Below, one piece after another: positions 5,941 to 52,164 of a DNA stretch of 64,000 nucleotides. Source of the DNA: Tetmemena sp. SeJ-2015 (lineage: Eukaryota; Ciliophora; Spirotrichea; Sporadotrichida; Oxytrichidae); assembly GCA_027382625.1 (NCBI GenBank), contig JAJKFJ010021523.1:1-64000 (forward strand), read 5' to 3'. Position numbers and translations under genes: made by a program. Position 1 is the first letter of the stretch. Each line of letters begins with the position of its first letter. Below the pieces are notes generated by a model that was not told the origin of the DNA, made no database searches, and worked only from the letters and a program-made list of their open reading frames with translations.

Positions 5941-8076
5941 TCATTTTTTATAAAAATCAATATTATACCATGATTTTAACTATTCGTAAATATCTCTCAG
6001 TTGAAGTGCAAGTTCCTAAAAACTAGGTCTCTCATTTTGATCAAAAGCGAGGCATTTCATTATCAATAAGCTTAAATATACTTCGTAAAAATACCATCTT
6101 TTCTTAATTGTTAAGTTTAGCTCATTGGGCACATATTCAGCTTAGAATTGTTCAATCCTTCCAGCACTTACTTCTTTGCAAGCGCCTTCAGTTGTGAACT
6201 AATCCAGGAATGTTTTATTCTGGAGCATCTCCCACATCACTAGCCCTAGCATGTATAAGTCACTCTTTGAACTATAGTTGTTTTTGTCTTCAATTGCCTC
6301 AGGCGCATAGTTCCTCATTTTCCCTCTTGTCATAGAGTGCTTGTCTTCCTCAGTTGCACTTACTCCAAAATCGCAGATCTTGAAGGTTGGATGATGCAGC
6401 CGATAAAAATTTTCTTCATCAAGATCACAATCGCTCGAATCTGGAGAATGAAAGACGAGGATGTTGTTTAGAGTGAGGTCTCTATGATAGATTCCCTGCT
6501 CAGCCATATCTGCGCAGGCATCCGAGAGATCAGCAAAACTCAAAAGCATCTTTGGTGAGAACTTCTTGCTGTATTGAGAATAGAAAGCGCTTGCATAGTC
6601 CCATCCCGACTAGCCATCTTTGCAATGTTCCATTACTGTGTAGACATACTCCTCTTTATTGTTGGCTCCGACTCCAAACAATCTTACGCAACAGTTATGA
6701 GTTATGGAACTAAGAGCTCTTACTTCCCTTGAGAAAGTATCCAACCTTCTCCTTCTTTGCTAGTTTATTTTAATCTTCTTTACTGCCACTTAAATGCATT
6801 TACTACTACTGACTTCCTCCTTAGTCTCTTCTTCACTTATTTCTTTTTCCTCATAAAGCATGTGCTCTACAACTCCTTAAACTCCTCTCCCCAAGATAAC
6901 TGGCCAGTCCTTTATTTATCTCAACTAGCTAAGTGGGATTATCTTAGTTTTAGAAAGATCAACTAGCTCTTAGAGTTTAATGGGCTCGTTTTATGTCTTC
7001 TATTTGGCTTAGCTTTTATTTATGCTGTAGGTGATTTTGTTCTCTAGATGATATTCGATAACTGACAGAGGGAGATACTGAGATAGTTAATCATGCTTAT
7101 TATCATTCACAAGAGCCCTTATCTTTGAAGAGCTAATGTCTAATTCCTTATTCTCTTCATCTCTTAACACCATTAAACAAGAGATTTTTAAGTAAAATCT
7201 AGCTGATTATATTTAACTTTACTACTTTAGAAAGAATGGGGTCTTCTTCTATTTGGGCTTGAGTGTTTTTGAATTTCTCAAAGTGTTCTTATCTATTCAT
7301 GATCAGAGCTATCTTCTGAGTAGGTGTCTAGTACAAAAACTAGGCTATGTTAGCAGCATTAGCTATGTTGTCTATTCCCATTAAGGTTATCAGAGTTATC
7401 TCAGGAATAGTGTCATTTTAATTACTAGCAAGGGATTGCTGCTATTCTGAATAGAACTGCTTTGCTTATTTGGCTATCTCTTTGGTAGCTTTACTCAAGC
7501 CCTCATTTTCATTCGCATCTATCAATTGAAAATAAGGCTGCACCCAATTCCCCTCATCAATTCATCAATAATAGCAAAGCAAATTGAAACTTGAATCATC
7601 TTTAGCCAATTCTTAGAGACTAAGTTTGATGATGTCTTTCCTAACTTGGTTTGCAATTGGCATCATTCCTCCATTTTTCTTTCTGAGGTTGGTATCATGA
7701 GTAGGAACCACGAGCGCTTTAATAACTCTATACTATGTTGTATTCCCAAAGAAAACACCGCTCTCCAATTTCTCTTTTGCCATCTCGAGCATCCTCAAAT
7801 GATTCAGGTCAATTATAATAAACAATCTTATTTGCTTGAAAGGTGGAAGGGACAAAAAGACCCACCGAAAACGATAATACAAGGCTAGAGAGTGACTTGA
7901 GATGAGCTGCTCTCATTTTGAGTTAACTCTATCAACCTATCTAGAGATGGTAGCTATATACTCTGCTGTTCCTTTTTTATCTCTTCTTTTTTTGAAGGGT
8001 CTTAATTTGCTGCTTTCCTTTCTTCTTTTATTTCTCCATTAATTTCGACCGTATTATAAACTCTGAGTTTATGCAT
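5941..8076 (-). CDS. NMN adenylyltransferase fused to a protein kinase
   Basis: Predicted bifunctional protein. The start at 8076 (MHKLRVYNT) follows an AT-rich divergent spacer and the stop is TGA at 5941-5943. After about 75 residues comes an NMNAT domain: IIVFGGSFCPFH, then LNHLRMLEMAKEKLE (the HxxH-type nucleotide-binding region), a middle part with LITLMGIDNIANAAN, and the C-terminal motif DISSSKIRALV near 7130, matching the ISSTxIR signature of NAD-synthesising enzymes. Directly downstream, in the same frame, is a kinase domain: glycine loop GRGVQGVV, VAVKKIK with the ATP lysine, HRDLTLNNIL catalytic loop, CDFG, then YAPEAIED and SDLYMLGLVMWEM. All catalytic residues are present. Two IESs (7545, 7806) must be removed, and one more short gap near 7190 is unresolved. 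NMNAT makes NAD from NMN and ATP; the kinase substrate is unknown. Confidence 0.8.
7545..7565. other. IES, 21 bp, pointer CAAT
   Basis: CAAT at 7545-7548 and 7566-7569 brackets two in-frame TGA codons in the NMNAT domain. Removing 21 bp keeps the frame and joins LLCYY to WVQPYF. A third CAAT lies between, so the exact excision could differ. Confidence 0.5.
7806..7840. other. IES, 35 bp, pointer AGGT
   Basis: AGGT at 7806-7809 and 7841-7844 flanks an AT-rich segment that breaks the first NMNAT motif. Removing 35 bp joins GGSFCPFHL to NHLRMLEMAKEKLE in frame, exactly the arrangement of the family (GSFxPxxxxHLR). The segment has no GT..AG ends. Confidence 0.8.
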
Positions 8077-21100: not shown

Positions 21101-21200
21101 AACTTAAATTTCATGATGGTTCTATAATAATTTCTCTTATTTATGTGCATCTTTCTAAACTTCTTTTCTTATTTTTAGAAAACAATTTAAAAATAGTGCA

Positions 21201-21842
21201 ATGAAAGTAAAACATAATAGCCTTATTCAATCTGCAATTATCGGCTCTGTTCTTACTCTAGCTTTATTTTCAACTATTGTGAGCGGCTAAACTTCGGTCA
21301 CAGCAGTGAGTTGCGCAACAACAAAGACTGATGCTTTCTGTAATACCAACTCCAATATAAATCTGGGAGATATGTGCTGCGCAACTGTTACTCAGTCAGT
21401 AAAGGGAAACACGGGCACAATTACAAACACCACTAACTATGAGTGCTTGCCAGTTGATTTTGTCTCCTATGTTGGGGTATATGTATTCAGCTCCACAACT
21501 AACTACACCTATAAATGCGAATCCACTACTAAAACTGGCTCGACTAAATGCTCCAGCGCTTCAGACTCAGCATGCGCTTCTCCCACATTTTGCTGCTCTG
21601 CCAGAGGTGCAGCTATCTCAACTGGATAAGTGAATGCATTCAGTCAGAGCGTGTGCTATAATCAATCATAGAGCGTGAACTACACAATCAGTCAGCTTGC
21701 AACTTCAGCTCCTAATATCACCTATGCAAGGATGTGTCTGATTAGTACCGCATCGTCTTCAGCTGTTTAATCTATTCTTTCTGGAATGAAGCTGTTACTT
21801 TTTAGCATGGCTGTTTTAACAAGTCTTGCTTTTATATTCTGA
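21201..21842 (+). CDS. Cys-rich surface protein with signal peptide and C-terminal hydrophobic segment
   Basis: One uninterrupted frame of 213 residues. It starts MKVKHNSLIQSAIIGSVLTL (signal peptide). The body is Thr/Ser-rich with many cysteines spaced as pairs (GDMCCATVT, SPTFCCSARG) and N-glycosylation sequons (NTTN, NYT, NIT). The C-terminus is hydrophobic (LLLFSMAVLTSLAFIF), followed at once by TGA at 21840-21842, which would suit a GPI anchor. However, a coding-like segment follows at about 21895-22075 (DFELGDYGRSMGGDF, GKPKYKDPYSTQ). If an IES or intron links them, the hydrophobic segment is a transmembrane helix and this is a single-pass receptor. Similar CC-containing proteins occur at 29.6-31.1 and 31.7-33.1 kb. 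Function unknown. Confidence 0.7.
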
Positions 21843-22099
21843 GTATATATTCCATAAATTTTTCTATTTTCATCCTAAGTTATAATTTCAATGATTTTGA
21901 GTTAGGCGATTACGGACGTTCAATGGGTGGAGACTTTTCAGCTCAACCTCGACTTATCCAGGGGAAGCCCAAGTACAAGGATCCCTATAGCACTCAATCT
22001 CATGAGTAAGACTAAGATCCTAATGTTTCATCTTTTTCCTCTGATCGAAAAAGAAACGTTTTCAAAATTTTGATGACAATAACATTTATGAGATATTCT

Positions 22100-23215
22100 C
22101 TGGCTTGCTGATTCCTTATCACACTATAGAGAGTATTACCCCCAGAATATTATGTTTGACATATAAAATACATGGCTGTAGTAGTTTATATATTGCAAGA
22201 GGAAGCACCTATGCTGCTATGGTCATACCTGCCAAAACTTAACTAAAAAATTATAATAAGAAAACAGATACTAGAAAAACTAAGTCATTTAAAAGGCCTT
22301 AGGTAATTTAGCTTTCAGTTGTATAAAAATTAAAAAAAATAGGAGTTGCAGCCTGTGCAGAGAAATATTTACCCCAACAGAGATATTCCCACTCCTGAGC
22401 CTGTACCAGGCAGACTTCACATTGATGTTCAAATCAATAATCAAGTCTACCTGATCAATTTTAATTTCGACTGACAGACAAGCCACCTGAAAGAGAGGAG
22501 GGAGTTGCGACAGAGTTCTATTTGGATAGACCTCCAGTTCCTCTCTTCCAGCCAAAGATGCCCAGTAAAGAGAACTGCAAGGCTACTCAGATCTATGATG
22601 AGGATCCAGAGCTGTTTGACTTTGATGCTGAGATAGAACCCATGCTTAACGTACTTATCTCTAAGACACTAGAGCAAGCTAGAATGAGAGTCCTTGAGGA
22701 AGAGGAGCTCAAGATCATGAAGGAATAGTCAAAAGGGTTTAATCTTCTAGTAAAAATGGTTGAGATATTTATTAGAACGCTGAATTAATCGAAGCTTAGA
22801 GACTTGAGGCTGCTGAGCTTAGAAGGAAACTTGTTAAATGTGGTTCCATGATTGAAAGAGAAGAAGAGTGTAGCAGAAAGCGAGAAGAGAGGAGAAGAAG
22901 GCTGCTCACAAGAAGCATGTAGCGAGAGTGATGGCTAAGTCTTACCTCGTTGGTTTGAAATTCAACGGCTTGAGAGCATTAAAGGATCAGGGCATGCTTA
23001 TTGAACAGTAATAGACTAGAATTTTGATTGTACTTTTTGGGTTCTAGATTTTATGGCTGACTTTATCGATGATGAGGAAGACTAATAAATTTATGAACTT
23101 AGAGGACGTGGTGAGAGATGCATTTGAACTTGGAAAAATGCAGCACAAAGAGAGCATTAAGCTATATGCGATAAATATAATTTACCTTTTTATATAAATA
23201 CTACTGTTGAGTTGC
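22100..23215 (+). CDS. RSP3: Radial spoke protein 3, scrambled in the germline
   Basis: Axonemal radial-spoke stalk protein and PKA anchor. Conserved blocks in order: QNIMFD, ARGSTYAAMVIPA, TPEPVPGRLHIDVQ, LTDKPPEREEGVATEFYLD, RPPVPLFQP, DPELFDFDAEIEPMLNVL, SKTLEQARMRVLEEEELKIM, NAELIEAQRLEAAELRR, AAHKKHVARVMAKSYL and MADFIDDE. These match RSP3 throughout. Four IESs (22162, 22451, 22821, 23074) break the frame in place. Between EEELKIMKE and NAELIEAQ, 11 residues are missing; they are encoded in two pieces at 23291-23324 and, inverted, 23747-23782. The gene therefore cannot be expressed from this DNA order. The true start and stop were not located; one frame change near 23000-23030 remains unexplained. 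Confidence 0.88.
22162..22186. other. IES, 25 bp, pointer TATA
   Basis: TATA at 22162-22165 and 22187-22190. Removing 25 bp joins NIMFD to IYIARGSTYAA in frame, as in RSP3 proteins elsewhere. Confidence 0.65.
22451..22470. other. IES, 20 bp, pointer CTGA
   Basis: CTGA at 22451-22454 and 22471-22474. Removing 20 bp joins HIDVQINNQVY to LTDKPPEREE, the expected RSP3 order, and removes a TGA. Confidence 0.8.
22717..22789. other. Scrambling junctions in RSP3: pointers to displaced pieces
   Basis: The left segment ends in TCATGAAGGAA (22715-22725), which recurs inverted at 23772-23782. The right segment begins with GAACGCTGAATTAAT (22775-22789), which recurs directly at 23310-23324. The 49 bp between (22726-22774) is eliminated DNA. 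If read as a GT..AG intron it would give a worse protein that lacks the conserved residues before NAELIEAQ. Confidence 0.85.
22821..22858. other. IES, 38 bp, pointer AGAAG
   Basis: AGAAG at 22821-22825 and 22859-22863 (a third copy starts 3 bp later). Removing 38 or 41 bp puts LRRRVQQKARREEK in frame with KAAHKKHVARVMAK. Confidence 0.6.
23074..23101. other. IES, 28 bp, pointer GAGGA
   Basis: GAGGA at 23074-23078 and 23102-23106. Removing 28 bp joins MADFIDDE to DVVRDAFELGKMQHKE in one frame at the C-terminal end of RSP3. Confidence 0.65.
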
Positions 23216-23290
23216 TCGAGAGTTTTATTTATACAATTTGAACAACTTGAAGGCTGTGAAGGACTCTATTTATAATTAAGATTCTATTTT

Positions 23291-23324
23291 ATGAGTACGA
23301 AGAAATCAGGAACGCTGAATTAAT
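23291..23324 (+). other. RSP3: Displaced RSP3 coding piece (third in order), 34 bp
   Basis: Begins with an 18-bp pointer (ATGAGTACGAAGAAATCA, 23291-23308) whose reverse complement lies at 23747-23764. It ends with the 15-bp pointer GAACGCTGAATTAAT (23310-23324) shared with 22775-22789. It supplies NEYEEIRNAELI in the assembled protein. Flanking DNA on both sides is non-coding. Confidence 0.85.
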
Positions 23325-23746
23325 TGCTTTAAATTACCTTAAATGTAATAATGAGTACTTAGACTCAAACACAAATGAGAGAGCCATAGTGAGACTAACT
23401 ATTCCTCACAGACTTGTAGAAGTTGATTATCTATGGACCAGTAATACTTTGCTACTCTATCTTCGTCCTGAACGAATTATATTTATTATGTTTGACAAGC
23501 GTATTGCAAGAAAATTAAATACAGCATATAAATGTTTTATGAATATATATTCTAAGTTGATTTCTTGGTCTTCCTGGACTATTTAATTAACTTACCCAAG
23601 GCATTACATTTTCATTCATAACCTGCTCTATTGGTTCAATAATCATTAGAGATAATAATTAAGTTGATTATAATCCATACTTCTCTCAAGTTCTTGTTTC
23701 CTTCTAAATATAAATTGACTTATTAGGATGCTCATAAATCAGTGAA
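23325..23746. other. AT-rich DNA between displaced RSP3 pieces
   Basis: No conserved coding pattern. A 65-residue open frame at 23389-23586 has no recognisable feature and is probably chance in a one-stop code. It would be eliminated if the RSP3 assembly proposed here is right. Confidence 0.5.
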
Positions 23747-23782
23747 TGATTTCTTCGTACTCATTTCTTTGTTCCTTCATGA
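23747..23782 (-). other. RSP3: Displaced and inverted RSP3 coding piece (second in order), 36 bp
   Basis: On the minus strand this reads from TCATGAAGGAA (pointer shared with 22715-22725), through seven unique bases, to the 18-bp pointer shared with 23291-23308. It supplies the residues KEQRNEYEEI. Both ends match their partners exactly, and the joined frame restores the invariant RSP3 spacing before NAEL. Confidence 0.87.
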
Positions 23783-24103
23783 AACTATAAATTATAAGCA
23801 TCATTAATTATATGTCAGCTACTCCACGTATTTCTCAGTTTGAACATCATGCAATATTATAAGATATTACACTCTCTTTATAATTGAGCAACTCCTATTT
23901 TGAAGAAAATATAACTGAAAGCTTATTAGTTATTAGTCAAATATCAACCATCATTAAATGAAAGTTACAAAATGATAATCAAATAAGAACTAATTATCTA
24001 ATGAAGTAAATGATTAAGAACAAAAGCTATTCAAGAAAAGTACTTATTTACAAAACTAATAAATTGTTATATAATCCAAATTTAATTCAATTTTTAAATT
24101 AAA
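23783..24103. other. AT-rich spacer
   Basis: AT-rich, no codon pattern in either strand. It lies upstream of the next plus-strand gene and may contain its promoter; no element recognised. Confidence 0.5.
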
Positions 24104-25442
24104 ATGTATAAGTATGATAGATTTGCGTTTTCTTATCCATTACAATAGCGTCAGGATTGGTACCGGCAGGTATCCAAAATTAATTCAACTTATTCCTCAA
24201 GATTAATGTTTAATTTGAAAGAGAGCATTGAAAGAGAGTACTAGCGAAAGAGAGATTTAGAGGAAGAGAAATCAAGGAAAGCACTTGATAAGCACAACCG
24301 TAGACTTGAAAAACGCAGACTCAGAGAGGAGAGAAGGAAAGAGCAAGAGCGTAAGAAGCTCAGAGATGACATTAAGTAATACTTCGTGGATAAGGGAGAA
24401 GTCAGAGATCACGTTCTGTAACTTGATATCCAAGATATCACTGGCAACTATGACAAGGGAAGACCTTTCGTGGGAGCTATTGGAGGTCAGTTACTGCAAA
24501 TTGCAATCGCCTTGGATGCCGTCAGACTGAGAGATTAGGAAAATCAGTAAGCCAGTCATAGCCAGAGCTAGGAAGATATCCATAAGGACTCGCATAAGGA
24601 TGTCAACAAACCTGGCAAGAAACACATCAGTGAATTACTCACTTGCCCAGGCCTCTACAACTTCATCCTAAACTACATTAGAGACATGAAAAATGATCTA
24701 CTTACTGTCCTCATTAGCAATTAAACTGTTGATAAAATGCAGTGAGAGTTTGAAAGTAGGCCTTGGAGATCTTCATAAGCTAGATGAAAACAACTTGATT
24801 AGAAACATATATCTATTTCAAACACCACAGGATATCTTTCAGTCCAAAGAGTTCAACCTAATGACAGCAGCTAAGCCACAACTAGCAGCCTCAACACTGT
24901 ATTGAAAGTTATCGTAGACATCCTTTCCAAGAAACTTCCTGCTGACGTGAATTTCAATAATGCTAAGCTTGAACAAGTAGTTAGCAAGATCAAGTTGATA
25001 ACTGTCCCCAAGCATATACTTGAATCCCCTCAAATCGTTAATAATGAGTTCATTAATGGAAGAATTCTATAGAAGTTGAAGAGGAAGGAGTTGACCCTGT
25101 AACTGGCCATGAAGTGAAACACATCGTAACCAAGTCAGTCGAGATCGAATAGGATGATAGAGGCTTGCTGATTCCAGCCAGAGTAGATCAACTTCCCTAC
25201 TCTATGATAATTGTTATGCAATGAACGAATTTGTGCCTCGAATCCATCGTCGGGAGGTCTTTAACTACTTAAAGAAGAACTTTGCCGAGTATTTCGATGG
25301 AAAGGATATTCAAAAAGAAACTGATGAAATGGCCAAAAAGGCAGATTCCATAGCAGCTGAGATCGATCAAAGGTTCATTAACTCCATCTCGCACCCTGAT
25401 AACATGCCTGAGTTCTAGTTCGAGATCAATCTCAACGACTGA
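24104..25442 (+). CDS. Coiled-coil protein, probably axonemal, unrecognised
   Basis: Starts MYKYDRFAFSYPLQQRQDWY. Residues about 40-95 form a strongly charged coiled coil (ERRKEQERKKLRDDIKQYF). A globular-looking part follows: DKGEVRDHVLQLDIQDIT, GRPFVGAIGGQLLQIAIALD, then KKHISELLTCPGLYNFIL. After two frame changes near 24740 and 24905 come DILSKKLPADVNFNNAKLEQ, KLITVPKHILESPQIVNNEF, DDRGLLIPARVDQLPYS and NEFVPRIHRREVFNYLKKNF. The stop is TGA at 25440-25442. The frame changes are likely IESs or introns. I do not know the family. The adjacent RSP3 gene and the coiled-coil plan suggest a ciliary protein, but that is inference only. Confidence 0.55.
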
Positions 25443-38000: not shown

Positions 38001-40454
38001 ATTAAAAAACACAGAAGAAATAATCTGCAAAGCGCTCGTGGTGGTGGTAGAAGGGAGCGATCTAATTTGCAAAACAGCGAGTATCCTCTGGACGATGAGA
38101 ACTCTATAGTCAGGCCAGGCTCTAAATAAGAAACTGCAAAGCTCAAAGACAGACTGAAATCCAATAATGAAGGAGAAGATTCCATTGCCTAGGACAGAGA
38201 GGCAAAATATCAGCAGGAGTTTACTAAAAGCTTAGTCAAGAGTTAAAATCGCCCTCAGTCTAAGCACAGACAGTTTTCCTAGAAGATTTCAAACACATCG
38301 AGTCAAGCACAAACAGCCTCAAATAACTTACTCAAGAACTCCAATAATGATAAGACAAGTATGAGTTCTATCAATCATAATCAAAGAAACTCCGTTGATG
38401 TAAAACTCAGGAAGACAAGCATAGCTGACTAATTTCACTATTAATCTTAAATTGTTTTGAAAAATAATAATTTGCATAAAAGAATAATCAAAGCAATTAT
38501 CTTACGACGGGAGGTGCCTCTCAAGCAGCTGATAAGAGCGATGAGTCTACAAAAGATTCTTAAAAACCTGAAAGCTCAGATTCAGAGAGACCTCTTGATC
38601 CTTAGAATCCGTCTTAGCAACTTCCTTTACCTTAAATCGACGAATAAAATCCAGCAGTTAGCTTGAATGCCAATAATTTGAACCCAAATAGATAGAGCTA
38701 TTCTATTAGACCAAGAAGGCCACTTATAAATCCTGTTGAGCAAGCCCGACTTGAATAGGAACGTATGATACAACTAAAGCTTGAGGCTAAAGAAAAATAT
38801 CAGTAATTTTCACTTGCAAATAGATAAGCAGGACAAAAATATAAGTTCATAGTTTGCCCAGGTAATAATTCAGGTGTAGTGAAGCGCTGCCTAGAACTCA
38901 GATAAGAGAGATGGGAAGAGACCAATGACTTTGATACTCTCTTTAACTTCAAATGGCACCCGATTTCTAAAGGAATCAAGTTCGATATGGTGAATACTCA
39001 TGGTACAAGATAGCTAGTTAACCATTTCGAGAATCACGATCTCTTTACTACAAAGGATCAAATGTTTAAGAACTTGCTAGCTCTTTGTGAGGTTAGGAAA
39101 TAAAACGTGTTCGAGCATGTTCCTCTAACTTTTGTGATAGAAGTTGACTCTCCAAACTACGCTTATGATCTAGATCGCTTCATCTAGTACTTCTCTTTCA
39201 TAGATAAATCGGTGGAACAGACAGGTAAAACACAGTAAGCTTTACTGAACTACCCAAACATGGTCGAAGATATTCTCTAGACCATAAACCAAAAGTTTCA
39301 GAATGCTTAGATTAACAAGGAAGAGCGAGGGCCATAGTTTGCTAAGAGGATAATTCCTACCTCTCACTTTCAGGCTCAGAATATGTGGGTCTTAAAGGCA
39401 ACTGGTTTCAACAGAGGTAGAGGTATTCATGTCTTCAATAAACTAGAAGATCTTAGAAAACTTATTAAAGAGTACACTGATGGCCTTAATTATGAAAACT
39501 CTTACAACTCTCAGTAGTAAACCAATAAGCTACTCAGCAGCAAATAGCAGAATTAAACTGGTTAAAACAATCAGTTGCAAAAAGACTAAGCAAATCAGAA
39601 CTAGCAGAGCTAGTAGTAAACCTAATAAAACCCAATATAAGATCTCTCCTAAGGTCTTAGATCTACAAGCTTTGTTATTCAGAAATATGTAGAGCATTAG
39701 TAATAATATTTTGCTTTTTATAGAGCATCCTCTATTGCTTCGACGTCGAAAATTTGATATTAGAGTGTGGGTGCTGGTAACTCAAGACGGCAAATGTTTC
39801 TTCTTTAAGGAAGGTTACATTCGTACCTCAAGTGAGGAGTTCACTCTCTCCTAAGAGAGTATTTCAAAGCCCTAAATTCATCTGACTAATAACGCAGTGT
39901 AGAAATTTACAGAGAACTATGGAAAGTTTGAGGATGGAAATCAGCTGAGCTTCTAAGACCTATAGGATATTTTAAATGAGGAGGATCCTTCAGCCGATAA
40001 GGAATATGTGAAAGGTAGATTGGTTCCCCGGATGAAAGAGATCATAGTCACGAGCTTAGATTCAGTTAGAAAGAAATTGAAAATTCCAGTTAACCAAAGG
40101 AACTAAGGCAGCTGCTTTGAGCTCTTTGGCTATGATTTCATAATAGATGGAGAGTACGACATATGGCTTATAGAGGTTAATACTAACCCGTGTCTTGAGG
40201 AATCTTCTCAACTTTTGACTAGATACATACCTCGAATGATAAATGACCTATTGAAGCTCACATTAGACTCAGTGTTTACTCAAAAGAAGGGCCAAGCTCC
40301 ATATGACCCAACCTAGATATGCAAATTTGCTATAGAGGGCTATGCAAACGAAGAAATTATGTGGGAACCTATTGGATAGCTTGAAACTCAGCAAGTCACT
40401 GAGAACAAGTCCAAAGGAGAAATTGATAAGTTTGGAAAGATAAGCAAGATCTGA
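35096..40454 (+). CDS. Tubulin tyrosine ligase-like enzyme with long N/Q-rich N-terminus
   Basis: The C-terminal third is a TTL domain that adds amino acids (usually glutamate) to tubulin tails. It has KYKFIVCPGNNSGVVKRCLE, FNFKWHPISKG, RQLVNHFENHDLFTTKDQM, MWVLKATGFNRGRGIHVF (ATP grasp), FVIQKYVEHPLL, KFDIRVWVLVT, SCFELFGYDFIIDGEYDIWL and IEVNTNPCLE, with the metal-binding Asp/Glu/Asn present. TGA is at 40452-40454. An N/Q-rich insert of about 60 residues interrupts the domain near 39500-39660. The N-terminal part (35.1-38.8 kb) is low complexity with several GT..AG introns; the first ATG at 35096 (MQVKAMGAQAV) is my choice but the first exons could belong to another gene. One IES is at 39690. 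Acts on axonemal or cytoplasmic microtubules. Confidence 0.8.
39690..39720. other. IES, 31 bp, pointer TAGAGCAT
   Basis: The 8-bp repeat TAGAGCAT at 39690-39697 and 39721-39728 flanks an AT-rich 23 bp. Removing 31 bp gives FVIQKYVEHPLL, invariant in TTLLs. A GT..AG reading of the same stretch (39689-39723) is possible in sequence but gives a wrong frame and loses the motif. Confidence 0.85.
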
Positions 40455-48184: not shown

Positions 48185-51100
48185 GTTTAATTGCTTTTGC
48201 TCCTCGTTAGAGTTTCTCAAATTGAAGTTCTTGATCTGCTTCCTTTGCTCTGACTGGTTTTCAATTCCAAGCTCTCTAGCGTACTCCTCAATCTTTTTAT
48301 GAGCCTCAAGATAACATGCCTCATATTAAATTCTCCCTAAAAGAAGCCTACTGCTATAGATATGAGATATTACTAGCCTAAAACTTCAAACAAAAAGAGT
48401 CAGTATTTAGATATGTGTTCAAATTAATTATCGTCAAAGACTTAAAAGTCTTCGTTTATTTTCTAGTCTAAAGAGCTTTCTTACGAGGAAGTCAAGGATT
48501 CAATTGATTCCGAATTCATTTGAGCCTCAAGATAGATGTATGGGAAGTTCATCAATACCTCTGTGAGCTTTGCTTCAACCTCATCCTCCTACTTCTTCTT
48601 AAAGGGATGCAAGACATGCTGGTACAAGTGATAGTTATGATACAGACTCTGCGACTCTCTCATGGCTTCATCCTACTACAAGACTTCCTGCATTCTCTCA
48701 TCGCTCTAGTCTCTCTATGCTCTTGAGCCAGAGCGAGACGACTGCTGATTCTTCCTAGAGGGGATCTAATCAGTCCCATAGATCTGCTCTATGAGGGAGT
48801 TATTCTTCTTATTGAGGTGGCTATTGATGCAAATCTGCACAAAAGAATCCCTCTTCTCCTAATTAAGCTTATCGAAGAAGGCTCTCTTGAGACTCTCATC
48901 GGCTTGGCGCTTGAAGTTGCGGAATTGATAGCTGTTCACAATCTCAAACTCATTCATGACTATGAAATTGATGCAGAAGTCTTCCAGCGATTGAGAGTTG
49001 TGGGCGTGCGCAATCAGGAAAAGCAAGAGAGCACTCTTTGAGTTTACATAGCTCTTCAGATAGCTAGAACAAATTTCAACTAGCCTAGATAAGCTGAAGT
49101 AGTCTGCGTAGATCATGAGGCGCACGAAGAAATCAACTGAGGACTTATTGATGTAAAAGTGGTCTGAGTAGATGTACTAGATGATGCAGGAGAAAAACTG
49201 CTTGGGCACTCCCTCAACTTTTATGAAGGGGTTGCGCTTTGCTCTCGCTTCAGAAAAGTCATAGGACTTTGAGAGCATACTCTTGAAGTAGGCGCAGCGT
49301 TGAGAGAGTACAGTTGAGTTTGTTTTGATGAGAGTATCCTCAACAAGGAAAAGAACGTCAAAGAACTCATCTAAGTTGCGGCACTGGTTCATGTTCATTA
49401 ATGCTTAGCAGTGAAGCCTTTCTTGGCGGTCTTCTGGTGACTGCATCAAGATAAAAGTTTGAAACATTTAAGGGAGTTAATTACAATAAGGGGGTATTTA
49501 TCTTCGCATGAGGCAAAGTCAAACTTCTGAGTTTCCTCAAGCTACTCAAAGTAAATATCATATTACAATCTCATTAACTACTCTTGCTTCTTCTTGAGTT
49601 GTTAGCTGACTGCCTTATCCATCTTTTCAATTTACTAGGCCATATTGATTTGAGCTCCTCTATAAATTTCTAAGAGAAGCTGATGCTAACCGAACTGTAT
49701 GCCTCTTTGAAGCTAAGCGTATGTCTGATCTCGAAAACTTTAAAATAAGCTATCGTAGGTCTGCTTCAAATTGAGTTCGAAGCAAATTTCGGCCACCTTC
49801 TTTACTTCCTTGAGAGTCATAGTCTTGGCGAACTTATCGCAATACAAGTACTCTAGGAAAGTGATAAAGCTGGATCTGCAATTTATCTTGTCCAACACTA
49901 TCTTATCTCCTTTAATTTAAAAACTAACTTGTTATGAAGTTTTATTGCTATTTTTATTATGAAATTTATAAGATTTATAGTAAGCACTTGATGTGAGATA
50001 ATTTATTCTAAAGCTGGTAATAAATGATGACTTTCTAAAAATATATTTCAAAATCATTCTTTATTTCATTTCTTTATAAAAATGGATATCCTTTTTTGGC
50101 AGTGTAGACTTTAGTGATGAAAGGCGCCACGAACTCATTCATTATCATAGCCTCCATCTTTTAGGTCGGGAGAGTAGGAGGGACTTGGCTTTGGATCTCT
50201 CTTTGTATCAGCCTAAATAGAACCAGTCCTCTGTGTGCATGCACCTCCTAGTATTTCCAATGCTGGTCGCCGTTTAACAATGAGTTTATATTTCACACAT
50301 TCCACTTTTCATATGAATGAGTTTTAAGGAGAAAAGAAATTTAGGCAGAAGATGATGTCTGAATTTTCCTGGCAGTTCACAAGAGACCTGTAGTCTTCCA
50401 CAATAGTGGATTGTGAGATCTGAATCTGCTGCTTCTTATGGCTTTGGAAGTCGAGGATATGCAAGTCATCGAAAAACTTTCCATCGAAACCTCCGAATTG
50501 AATGATGGACCCTCCGATAAAAAGAGCAGAGTGTCTCCTACGAGGAGATGGCAAATTTCCAGAGGCACAATGTTCCTTCCAAACAAGAGTTGCGAAATCA
50601 AACTCATGGATATCGCAAACGTCCTTCTCGTTTCTTCCTCCAATGATAAACAGTCTCCCTTAGTGAGTAGTAGAGGCATGGCCCCATCTTGTGCTGGGAA
50701 CTTTCCCCTCCGTTGGTTTTACAGCCTTGCACTCAATCCTGATTTCTAGGTTAGAAGGATCTTTGATGAAGTTACTCAAGTCAAAAATGTGCATCTCATT
50801 CATGTGCTGGTACTCACTATGACACCCTCCAAAAGTCACAACCTCTGTTTCACTGATCGCAGTGAGAGTGTGGAATCGCTTTGGAGTAAAATGGTCAATG
50901 AAATTGATTTCAGGCTTGTGCCAGGTTTCATTATCGAGATCAAAGGCCCATAAGTCCGCCAAATCTGAGAGACCTTCTCCACCCACTACTATTTTAAGAT
51001 TGGAAGAGATCAGGAAAATAGTTTTATTAAAGTTTGCTTTAAGACTGCTAAATATTTAAGTATGTCTTTTGCTATATATAGTCTCCATGACAGCTAAAAG

Positions 51101-52164
51101 ACTATTTAAATTTCTTAGATATCACTAAAGATCAACTAAGACATAGATACATATTTAAAGAAAATTTTCTCAGGCAGAGGTCTTTCTCTATTTCTTTCGA
51201 TTGTTAAATTAAAGAATTAGTAAAACACATTAAAGCATAATATATTTAATATCTTTTCAGAATTATCTTAAAATAGTTAAAATTAATCATAAATTCATGA
51301 TATCATATACTTTCCAAGTCTACAAGAAGCGTGATAGGTCCTAGCTTGTGGAAGAACAGAGTTTTCGGCATATTTAATTTTCTCAACTTTAATAGTCTTT
51401 GAAGCTCCAGATTTTGTTAGTACTGAGTGAGGTTGCTAAAACTGTAGCTTCAAAATATCATTAAATCGCTGCCTCTGAGTGTGTCCTCCTCCAAAAACGT
51501 ATATTCTACAGTTAGGTTTAATGATAAATCCAAGTATGACAAAACTCTTTATGTTACAAATCGGTACAAACTCTCTTAGGGATATTTATGTTCCACTTAC
51601 GAGTCAGTCTTCTCATAGTAGATGCTAGTGTGATTTGACCTGGATACTAAAGCCTTGTCCTCTCCTTCGACAGGAATCTCTTAATAGAGCATGCTTGTGA
51701 AGTCGAACTCCCACACATCGCCCAAATACTAGCCTATTTCATAGTTTAGAACATTCAATTATTATCCTTTCGGGACTATAGCAGTATGCCATTTTTAAAT
51801 ATATCTAACTCTCTCTCTTTAACTCGAACAGCAGGAATTTAGAGTATGGATTAGGAGACTTACCTTCATAACCACCGATGATGTAGAGGCGATTGTGGGC
51901 CTCAACGCATGACTGACCCCACCTGGCGGGTGGCTTAAGTTATCTCTTCTTATAGAGTTGATCGTTGACTGGCTTGCCCTAGTCAAGATGGATAAATTCA
52001 TTCTAGCAGTTCCTTCTAAGGTGGTCTAGGTTTGCCCAGAACATAATTTAAATTCAAATTCTCAATTATAACTCAAGCGTACTATTCTGCGCTTTATTTT
52101 TCCAATCACCTACTCCCCACACCTACTCTATCTCATAAATCATAATGTTACTCTCTATATTCAT
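48185..52164 (-). CDS. Kelch-repeat protein with two BTB domains (LZTR1-like)
   Basis: Order from the N-terminus: kelch repeats (about 52160-50330) with RWGQSCVEAHNRLYIIGGYE, FTPKRFHTLTAISETEVVTF GG, SPRRRHSALFIGGSIIQFGG, then a first BTB-like unit (about 49915-49600; SSFITFLEYLYCDKFAKTMT). A second BTB (49400-49180; FDVLFLVEDTLIKTNSTVLS, FKSMLSKSYDF) and its BACK-like helices (49125-48860; YFSLSRLVEICSSYLKSYV) follow, then a charged tail. This kelch-BTB-BACK-BTB-BACK plan is that of LZTR1, a CUL3 substrate adaptor for RAS-type GTPases. AT-rich gaps at about 49920-50090 and 51020-51320 are large introns or IESs. The start (MNIESNIMIYEIEQVWG) and stop are approximate. A related gene begins at 63.1 kb. 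Confidence 0.75.

Follow-up and report, generated by a model that had tools for sequence, protein, structure and literature searches.

The question raised by this locus is how a gene for radial spoke protein 3 (RSP3) is laid out in the window (the whole stretch of 64,000 nucleotides that was analysed), and how far its scrambling extends. The initial annotation described four pieces over 22715-23782 with one inverted micro-segment; a scrambled germline RSP3 with an inverted micro-segment holds up, while the count and the span do not, as ~28 germline segments map to 21.9-25.44 kb (~3.5 kb) and seven inverted plus six direct micro-segments share the same spacer. The locus is very probably a germline (micronuclear) copy of RSP3 scrambled in an odd-even pattern.

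The join first proposed unites M10, M11, M12 and M13 (segments a, inverted b, c and d). Its three shared words are exact: the 11-bp word TCATGAAGGAA at 22715-22725 and 23772-23782 (-), the 18-bp word ATGAGTACGAAGAAATCA at 23291-23308 and 23747-23764 (-), and the 15-bp word GAACGCTGAATTAAT at 22775-22789 and 23310-23324. Joining a, inverted b, c and d yields the frame that had been claimed, ...KIMKEQRNEYEEIRNAELIE... (KIMKE-QRNEYEEIR-NAELIE); the residues said to be missing between MKE and NAELIE number nine, QRNEYEEIR, rather than eleven. The RSP3-like spacing claimed for the site is borne out by 111 of 112 spanning homologs (118 homologs in total), and none of the 112 is without the piece. 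Single shared words are suggestive only, since repeats of that length also turn up in dinucleotide shuffles: an inverted repeat of at least 18 bp inside the 1,059-bp spacer in 7 of 300, and a direct match of at least 15 bp from spacer to gene in 2 of 300.

The map of the whole locus, which we infer from germline DNA and protein homologs, was built from exact repeats between the gene and downstream sequence, guided by homologs, four of which also served as tblastn queries (Table 1). The 15 outer segments are colinear and all on the plus strand, with M1 M2 M4 M6 M8 M10 M13 M15 M17 M19 preceding the 1,059-bp spacer and M20 M22 M24 M26 M28 following it. The 13 micro-segments, 23-81 bp long and 482 bp in total, all lie inside the spacer (23159-24217), in the order M21 M23 M12 M25 M27 M3 (+) and then -M18 -M16 -M14 -M11 -M9 -M7 -M5. 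The seven inverted ones are colinear and form the spacer set for the 5' half, four direct ones are colinear and belong to the 3' half (1/5040 and 1/24, respectively, if the orders were random), and M3 and M12 are the two out of colinear order.

Each of the 27 junctions has an exact repeat of 5-18 bp (pointer) at both partners, and 25 of them, all except M1/M2 and M19/M20, are scrambled, with pointers of 10.1 bp on average (median 10 bp). Every micro-segment carries copies of 6-18 bp from the edges of the gap it fills, M11 and M12 filling one gap together; own (non-pointer) bases come to 1 of 34 in M12, four in M3 and 7 in M11. M19 and M20 share the 12-bp repeat AAAGAGAGCATT, which flanks the central spacer, and the pointer word of the locus reduces to empty in two rounds of repeat/return removal. 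GC content is 0.419 in outer segments, 0.367 in micro-segments, 0.192 in the rest of the central spacer and 0.248 in the small spacers; at the edges of micro-segments it is higher inside than outside in 21 of 26 cases and equal in 4 of 26.

Table 1. Segments and spacers of the RSP3 locus in window coordinates. Pointer test, shuffles of 500 reaching the observed score; homolog fit, shuffles of 120; spacing, homologs with the spacing of the joined protein among those spanning the site.
Feature	Positions	Strand	Content	Pointers (bp)	Gap filled	Pointer test	Homolog fit	Spacing
M1	21908..22008	+	5' end of RSP3 frame (GDYGRSMGGDFSAQP...SHE); segment start a guess					
IES M1/M2	22009..22130	+	ordinary; pointer GAGTA; insertion score null-like	5		389/500		
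M2	22131..22161	+	...EYYPQNIMFD; joined frame					
M4	22191..22233	+	IARGSTYAAMVIPA; joined frame					
M6	22256..22320	+	DKKTDTRKTKSFKRP...; joined frame					
M8	22336..22433	+	...YPNRDIPTPEPVPGRLHIDVQ; joined frame					
M10	22471..22725	+	LTDKPPE...KIMKE; ends in 11-bp word					
M13	22775..22830	+	NAELIEAQRLEAAELRRK; begins with 15-bp word					
M15	22857..23006	+	RRRVQQKAR...DQGMLIE; joined frame					
M17	23037..23082	+	WVLDFMADFIDDEED; joined frame					
M19	23096..23158	+	NLEDVVRDAFELGKMQHKESI; ends in 12-bp pointer AAAGAGAGCATT					
Central spacer (IES), 1,059 bp	23159..24217	.	contains all 13 micro-segments					
M21	23203..23225	+	VELLES	8+8	M20/M22	32/500	5/120	12/13
M23	23241..23271	+	NLKAVKDSI	10+7	M22/M24	32/500	6/120	7/8
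M12 (segment c)	23291..23324	+	1 bp own	18+15	M10/M13, with M11			111/112 with M11
M25	23346..23426	+	NNEYLDSNTNERAIVRLTIPHRLVEV; P0092 has KNTNEKAIVRILVPKR	11+10	M24/M26	0/500	1/120	1/7
M27	23452..23478	+	YSIFVLNEF	9+10	M26/M28	0/500	0/120	9/10
M3	23484..23511	+	IMFDKRIAR	14+10	M2/M4	0/500	0/120	68/68
M18	23551..23575	-	EEDQEINLE; 14% identity	8+8	M17/M19		0/120 (best)	94/97
M16	23594..23642	-	IEPIEQVMNENVMPWV	9+6	M15/M17	141/500 (not significant)	0/120	90/97
M14	23680..23707	-	RRKQELERR	12+7	M13/M15	0/500	0/120	113/113
M11 (inverted segment b)	23747..23782	-	7 bp own	11+18	M10/M13, with M12			111/112 with M12
M9	23813..23849	-	DVQTEKYVEQLT	11+6	M8/M10	9/500	0/120	98/99
M7	23888..23923	-	probably intronic; pointer evidence only	11+14	M6/M8	0/500		
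M5	24127..24173	-	IPAGTNPDAIVMDKK	9+10	M4/M6	6/500	0/120	35/83; lacking in 3/83
M20	24218..24732	+	KESIEREYQRKRDLEEE...SNQTV; begins with 12-bp pointer AAAGAGAGCATT					
M22	24744..24798	+	ESLKVGLGDLHKLDENN; joined frame					
M24	24812..25049	+	SISNTTGYLSV...SPQIVNNE; joined frame					
M26	25070..25205	+	VEVEEEGVDP...DQLPYS; joined frame					
M28	25222..25442	+	3' end of frame, TGA stop 25440-25442; somatic segment end putative					

Single segment edges may still shift, as the map was revised twice while evidence accrued. M4 was at one stage a single segment and was replaced by M4-M5-M6, and a direct join at GAGGA was dropped after tblastn with P0001 and other homologs put 23346-23426 in the 3' half. 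The use of 23351-23394 as M18 fell for the same reason, and the inverted piece at 23551-23575 then fits that gap.

The pointers were judged by taking the best in-frame spacer insertion for each gap by pointer length alone and summing over 12 gaps. The sum is 230, where 500 dinucleotide shuffles of the spacer average 168.4 with a maximum of 180, and where 55 other stretches of the window, used as real-sequence decoys, average 164.8 (sd 4.9) with a maximum of 175; collectively, the pointers exceed what chance produces. Taken singly, M15/M17 (141/500) and M20/M22 and M22/M24 (32/500 each) are weak, and M1/M2, taken as a plain join, is null-like (389/500). The top pointer insertion differs from the mapped one at M10/M13, M15/M17 and M17/M19, and by one edge at M22/M24; the mismatch at M10/M13 is expected because two segments fill that gap. 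A protein-free chain detector did not tell the RSP3 locus apart from shuffled sequence.

Homologs were brought in by scoring the joined peptide of each of 11 gaps against up to ten of them. The top-scoring insertion is the mapped segment in 10 of the 11 gaps, the exception being M10/M13, which needs two segments. Its fit is reached by no shuffle out of 120 at M2/M4, M4/M6, M8/M10, M13/M15, M15/M17, M17/M19 and M26/M28, by one at M24/M26, by five at M20/M22 and by six at M22/M24. The spacing test used 118 proteins, and Table 1 gives for each site how many of the proteins that span it share the spacing of the joined protein; joined queries were used to collect the homologs, and this may favour ones holding these residues. 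The M5 piece is missing in 3 of 83 homologs, and at the other ten micro-segment sites no spanning homolog lacks the piece. M5 and M25 sit in length-variable stretches of the homologs, their residues being present in P0019 (AGTNPDTMVMEK) and P0092 (KNTNEKAIVRILVPKR), and M18 is supported by its spacing more than by its residues.

The joined frame runs for 750 residues from GDYGRS, whose start codon is putative, to the TGA at 25440-25442, with a presumed 36-bp intron omitted. This GTAA...TAG stretch crosses the joined M6-M7-M8 (window 22303-22320, 23888-23923 and 22336-22350) and looks like an intron that would itself be assembled from three scrambled segments. Sixteen in-frame TAA or TAG codons occur in the joined frame and the stop is TGA; both of these codons encode glutamine in this ciliate. 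It would be placed among hypotrich-like ciliates, an assignment for which genetic code and scrambling are the only two criteria.

Family membership was assessed on an earlier joined version, which matches seven distinct solved chains named radial spoke protein 3 or homolog (best E 1.2e-57) and scores 207 bits against the Pfam family Radial_spoke_3 (PF06098; cut-off 26.4). The same profile gives 88.8 bits in one piece on the unjoined window and 114.6 bits on a rough unscrambled reading, whose protein is shorter, so that this score and that of the joined version are not fairly comparable. Homologs P0001, P0011, P0019 and P0092 (residues 79-743) align along most of the final joined protein, which makes the 3' half part of the same gene; a homolog search with region 300-740 of the joined protein returned one weak protein. 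Among this organism's proteins no continuous RSP3 counterpart was found; the best homolog has 66% identity, and the protein is continuous only in those of relatives. Likewise, no joined RSP3 copy was found in the assembly, where a 606-base joined query matched only pieces of the window.

The gap between M10 and M13 can be read without any scrambling, as a 47-bp IES bounded by the pointer TAG (22726-22728 / 22773-22775), which would leave MKE-Q-NAELIE and lose RNEYEEIR. Such a join stays in frame with TAG read as Q and is the best of six direct joins there; however, it scores 154.2, against 169.0 for segment c alone and 204.6 for a, inverted b, c and d, the local order of the initial annotation and the top-scoring join found at the site (means of the best five among 11 homologs). 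It also has the spanning homologs against it, 111 of the 112 following the scrambled spacing and none being without the piece, and it gives no account of the shared words of 18 and 15 bp; a plain IES at this site is extremely unlikely. A wider doubt is that only the first four segments are real, with plain IESs or fortuitous repeats at all remaining junctions. The weakness of M15/M17, M20/M22 and M22/M24 by pointer length is in keeping with this, but pointer sum, homolog fit, spacing, colinearity and base composition all favour the larger set, and direct joins score below the mapped insertion in all ten gaps where the latter is best; that four segments are the whole of it is very unlikely.

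The locus could also be a decayed gene copy, or its spacer could be misassembled. Two further RSP3-family loci lie above the family cut-off, so that a copy could be dispensable, and the locus is known from the assembly alone; against this, the joined frame is open to its 3' end with a full homolog fit, and neither decay nor misassembly would be expected to leave exact repeats at both ends of the micro-segments and GC steps at their edges. Either event is considered extremely improbable.

For a germline RSP3 scrambled in odd-even fashion, a continuous gene would arise during formation of a new somatic nucleus, in which template RNA from the old macronucleus would guide recombination at the pointers, the inverted pieces would be flipped and the spacers removed to give a continuous RSP3 chromosome. 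The exact repeats, their order and orientation, the single open frame and the RSP3 fit are seen in the locus itself, and the rearrangement steps are carried over from Oxytricha and Stylonychia, for which RNA-template-guided rearrangement at pointers, with simple IESs early and inversions or transpositions late, is described in portions of PMC9797194, PMC2394655 and PMC7599177. As simple IESs tend to leave first and inversions and transpositions follow, M1/M2 would be expected to be joined early and the spacer pieces late.

Odd-even scrambling is a known kind of arrangement, of which the RSP3 locus is a rich further example. Like the odd-even genes of Oxytricha trifallax, as treated in parts of PMC5940158 and PMC9797194, it combines an ordered set with an interleaving set (often inverted in that species) and its pointers are longer where junctions are scrambled. 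Its pointer word can be reduced completely, as can those of most scrambled Oxytricha chromosomes, repeat/return reduction holding for 96% of them in the account of PMC5940158. Unlike the O. trifallax genes, the reversed and direct even sets share one spacer at RSP3 and two pieces are out of line. The density of ~12 segments per kb compares with a mean of 6.4 per kb given for scrambled O. trifallax chromosomes in the relevant section of PMC10901763, and scrambled genes are put at 15.6% of the genes of that species in PMC9797194. What stands out at the RSP3 locus is the segment density, the reversed and direct sets in one spacer, and an M12 that is nearly all pointer.

In actin I of Stylonychia lemnae, deletion, inversion and reordering are needed, as here, and pointers measure 3-19 bp; however, that gene has ten segments, two of them inverted, and no odd-even micro-segment cassette in the portion of PMC2394655 that describes it. 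DNA polymerase alpha of Oxytricha and Stylonychia resembles RSP3 in assembling one gene from very many segments, more than 40 in its case, but these come from two loci separated by more than 3 kb according to the passages of PMC7599177 that cover it, whereas RSP3 occupies one ~3.5-kb locus. No publication on a scrambled ciliate RSP3 was found in a search that lay outside supplementary scrambled-gene tables, where RSP3 may be included.

The two other RSP3-family loci in the assembly, on C2944 (L010) and C3157 (L011), differ in layout. On C2944 profile positions 6-227 are matched in one stretch on one strand, while the gene on C3157 shows scrambling as well: its 5' and 3' halves lie in opposite orientation, with one large inversion seen in a partial look and a 10-bp repeat GTGCTCCTTA at L011 3100-3109 (+) and 5808-5817 (-). 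A further contig, C3412, gives a weak family match under the cut-off (E 0.42). Three RSP3 genes are reported for Tetrahymena in part of PMC12399478.

As to origin, odd-even genes have been modelled as products of duplication and decay (Gao et al. 2015, as cited in the section of PMC9797194 on this point). If the spacers came from a decayed second gene copy, they should resemble the segments they replace; in the final map none of 20 comparisons fell below 50/1000 shuffles, the best being 121/1000. This lack of resemblance may fit an old locus that has lost the trace, or another origin. It is conceivable, though unlikely, that the central spacer is what remains of a second gene copy, complementary to the first and inserted at AAAGAGAGCATT, with its 5' half flipped and its 3' half not, so that the incomplete copies interleave; equally tentatively, some pieces would have been whittled almost to pointers (M12 to one own base, M3 to four). 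The repeats would then account for most of the coding content of such pieces, and their order would have to be set by an RNA template.

The value of the odd-even scrambled RSP3 lies in its compactness, as both odd-even forms, reversed and direct, occur in one short spacer and some segments are nearly all pointer, so that it lends itself well to testing template-guided assembly and the way in which odd-even patterns grow. It also illustrates that germline DNA and distantly related proteins, used with controls, allow the map of a scrambled gene to be worked out; beyond that, it joins the thousands of scrambled genes annotated in other species.

Several minor observations concern the surroundings of the locus and the assembly. 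Rfam returned no match over the window at gathering scores, and the viral_contigs set held no match to homolog P0001. A word from the 5' end of small-subunit rRNA occurs with one mismatch at four places in the assembly (L013-L016); at the Rfam gathering score, L014 and L015 contain no small-subunit rRNA, the only match being a large-subunit rRNA fragment in L015. The germline rDNA may be fragmented. A direct repeat of 14 bp, GGCTTGCTGATTCC, at 22102-22115 (in the M1/M2 IES) and 25162-25175 (inside M26), is unneeded by the map and may be fortuitous or the vestige of some other event. Pfam was run on ten open frames of the window and four match, at 5944-7296 (-), 38429-39754 (+), 48403-49518 (-) and 50312-51121 (-), the matches being a protein kinase, a weak tubulin-tyrosine ligase, a BTB domain and Kelch repeats. 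A separate open frame at 21117-21842 (+) ends ~70 bp upstream of the RSP3 frame, and somatic chromosomes may therefore sit close together here.
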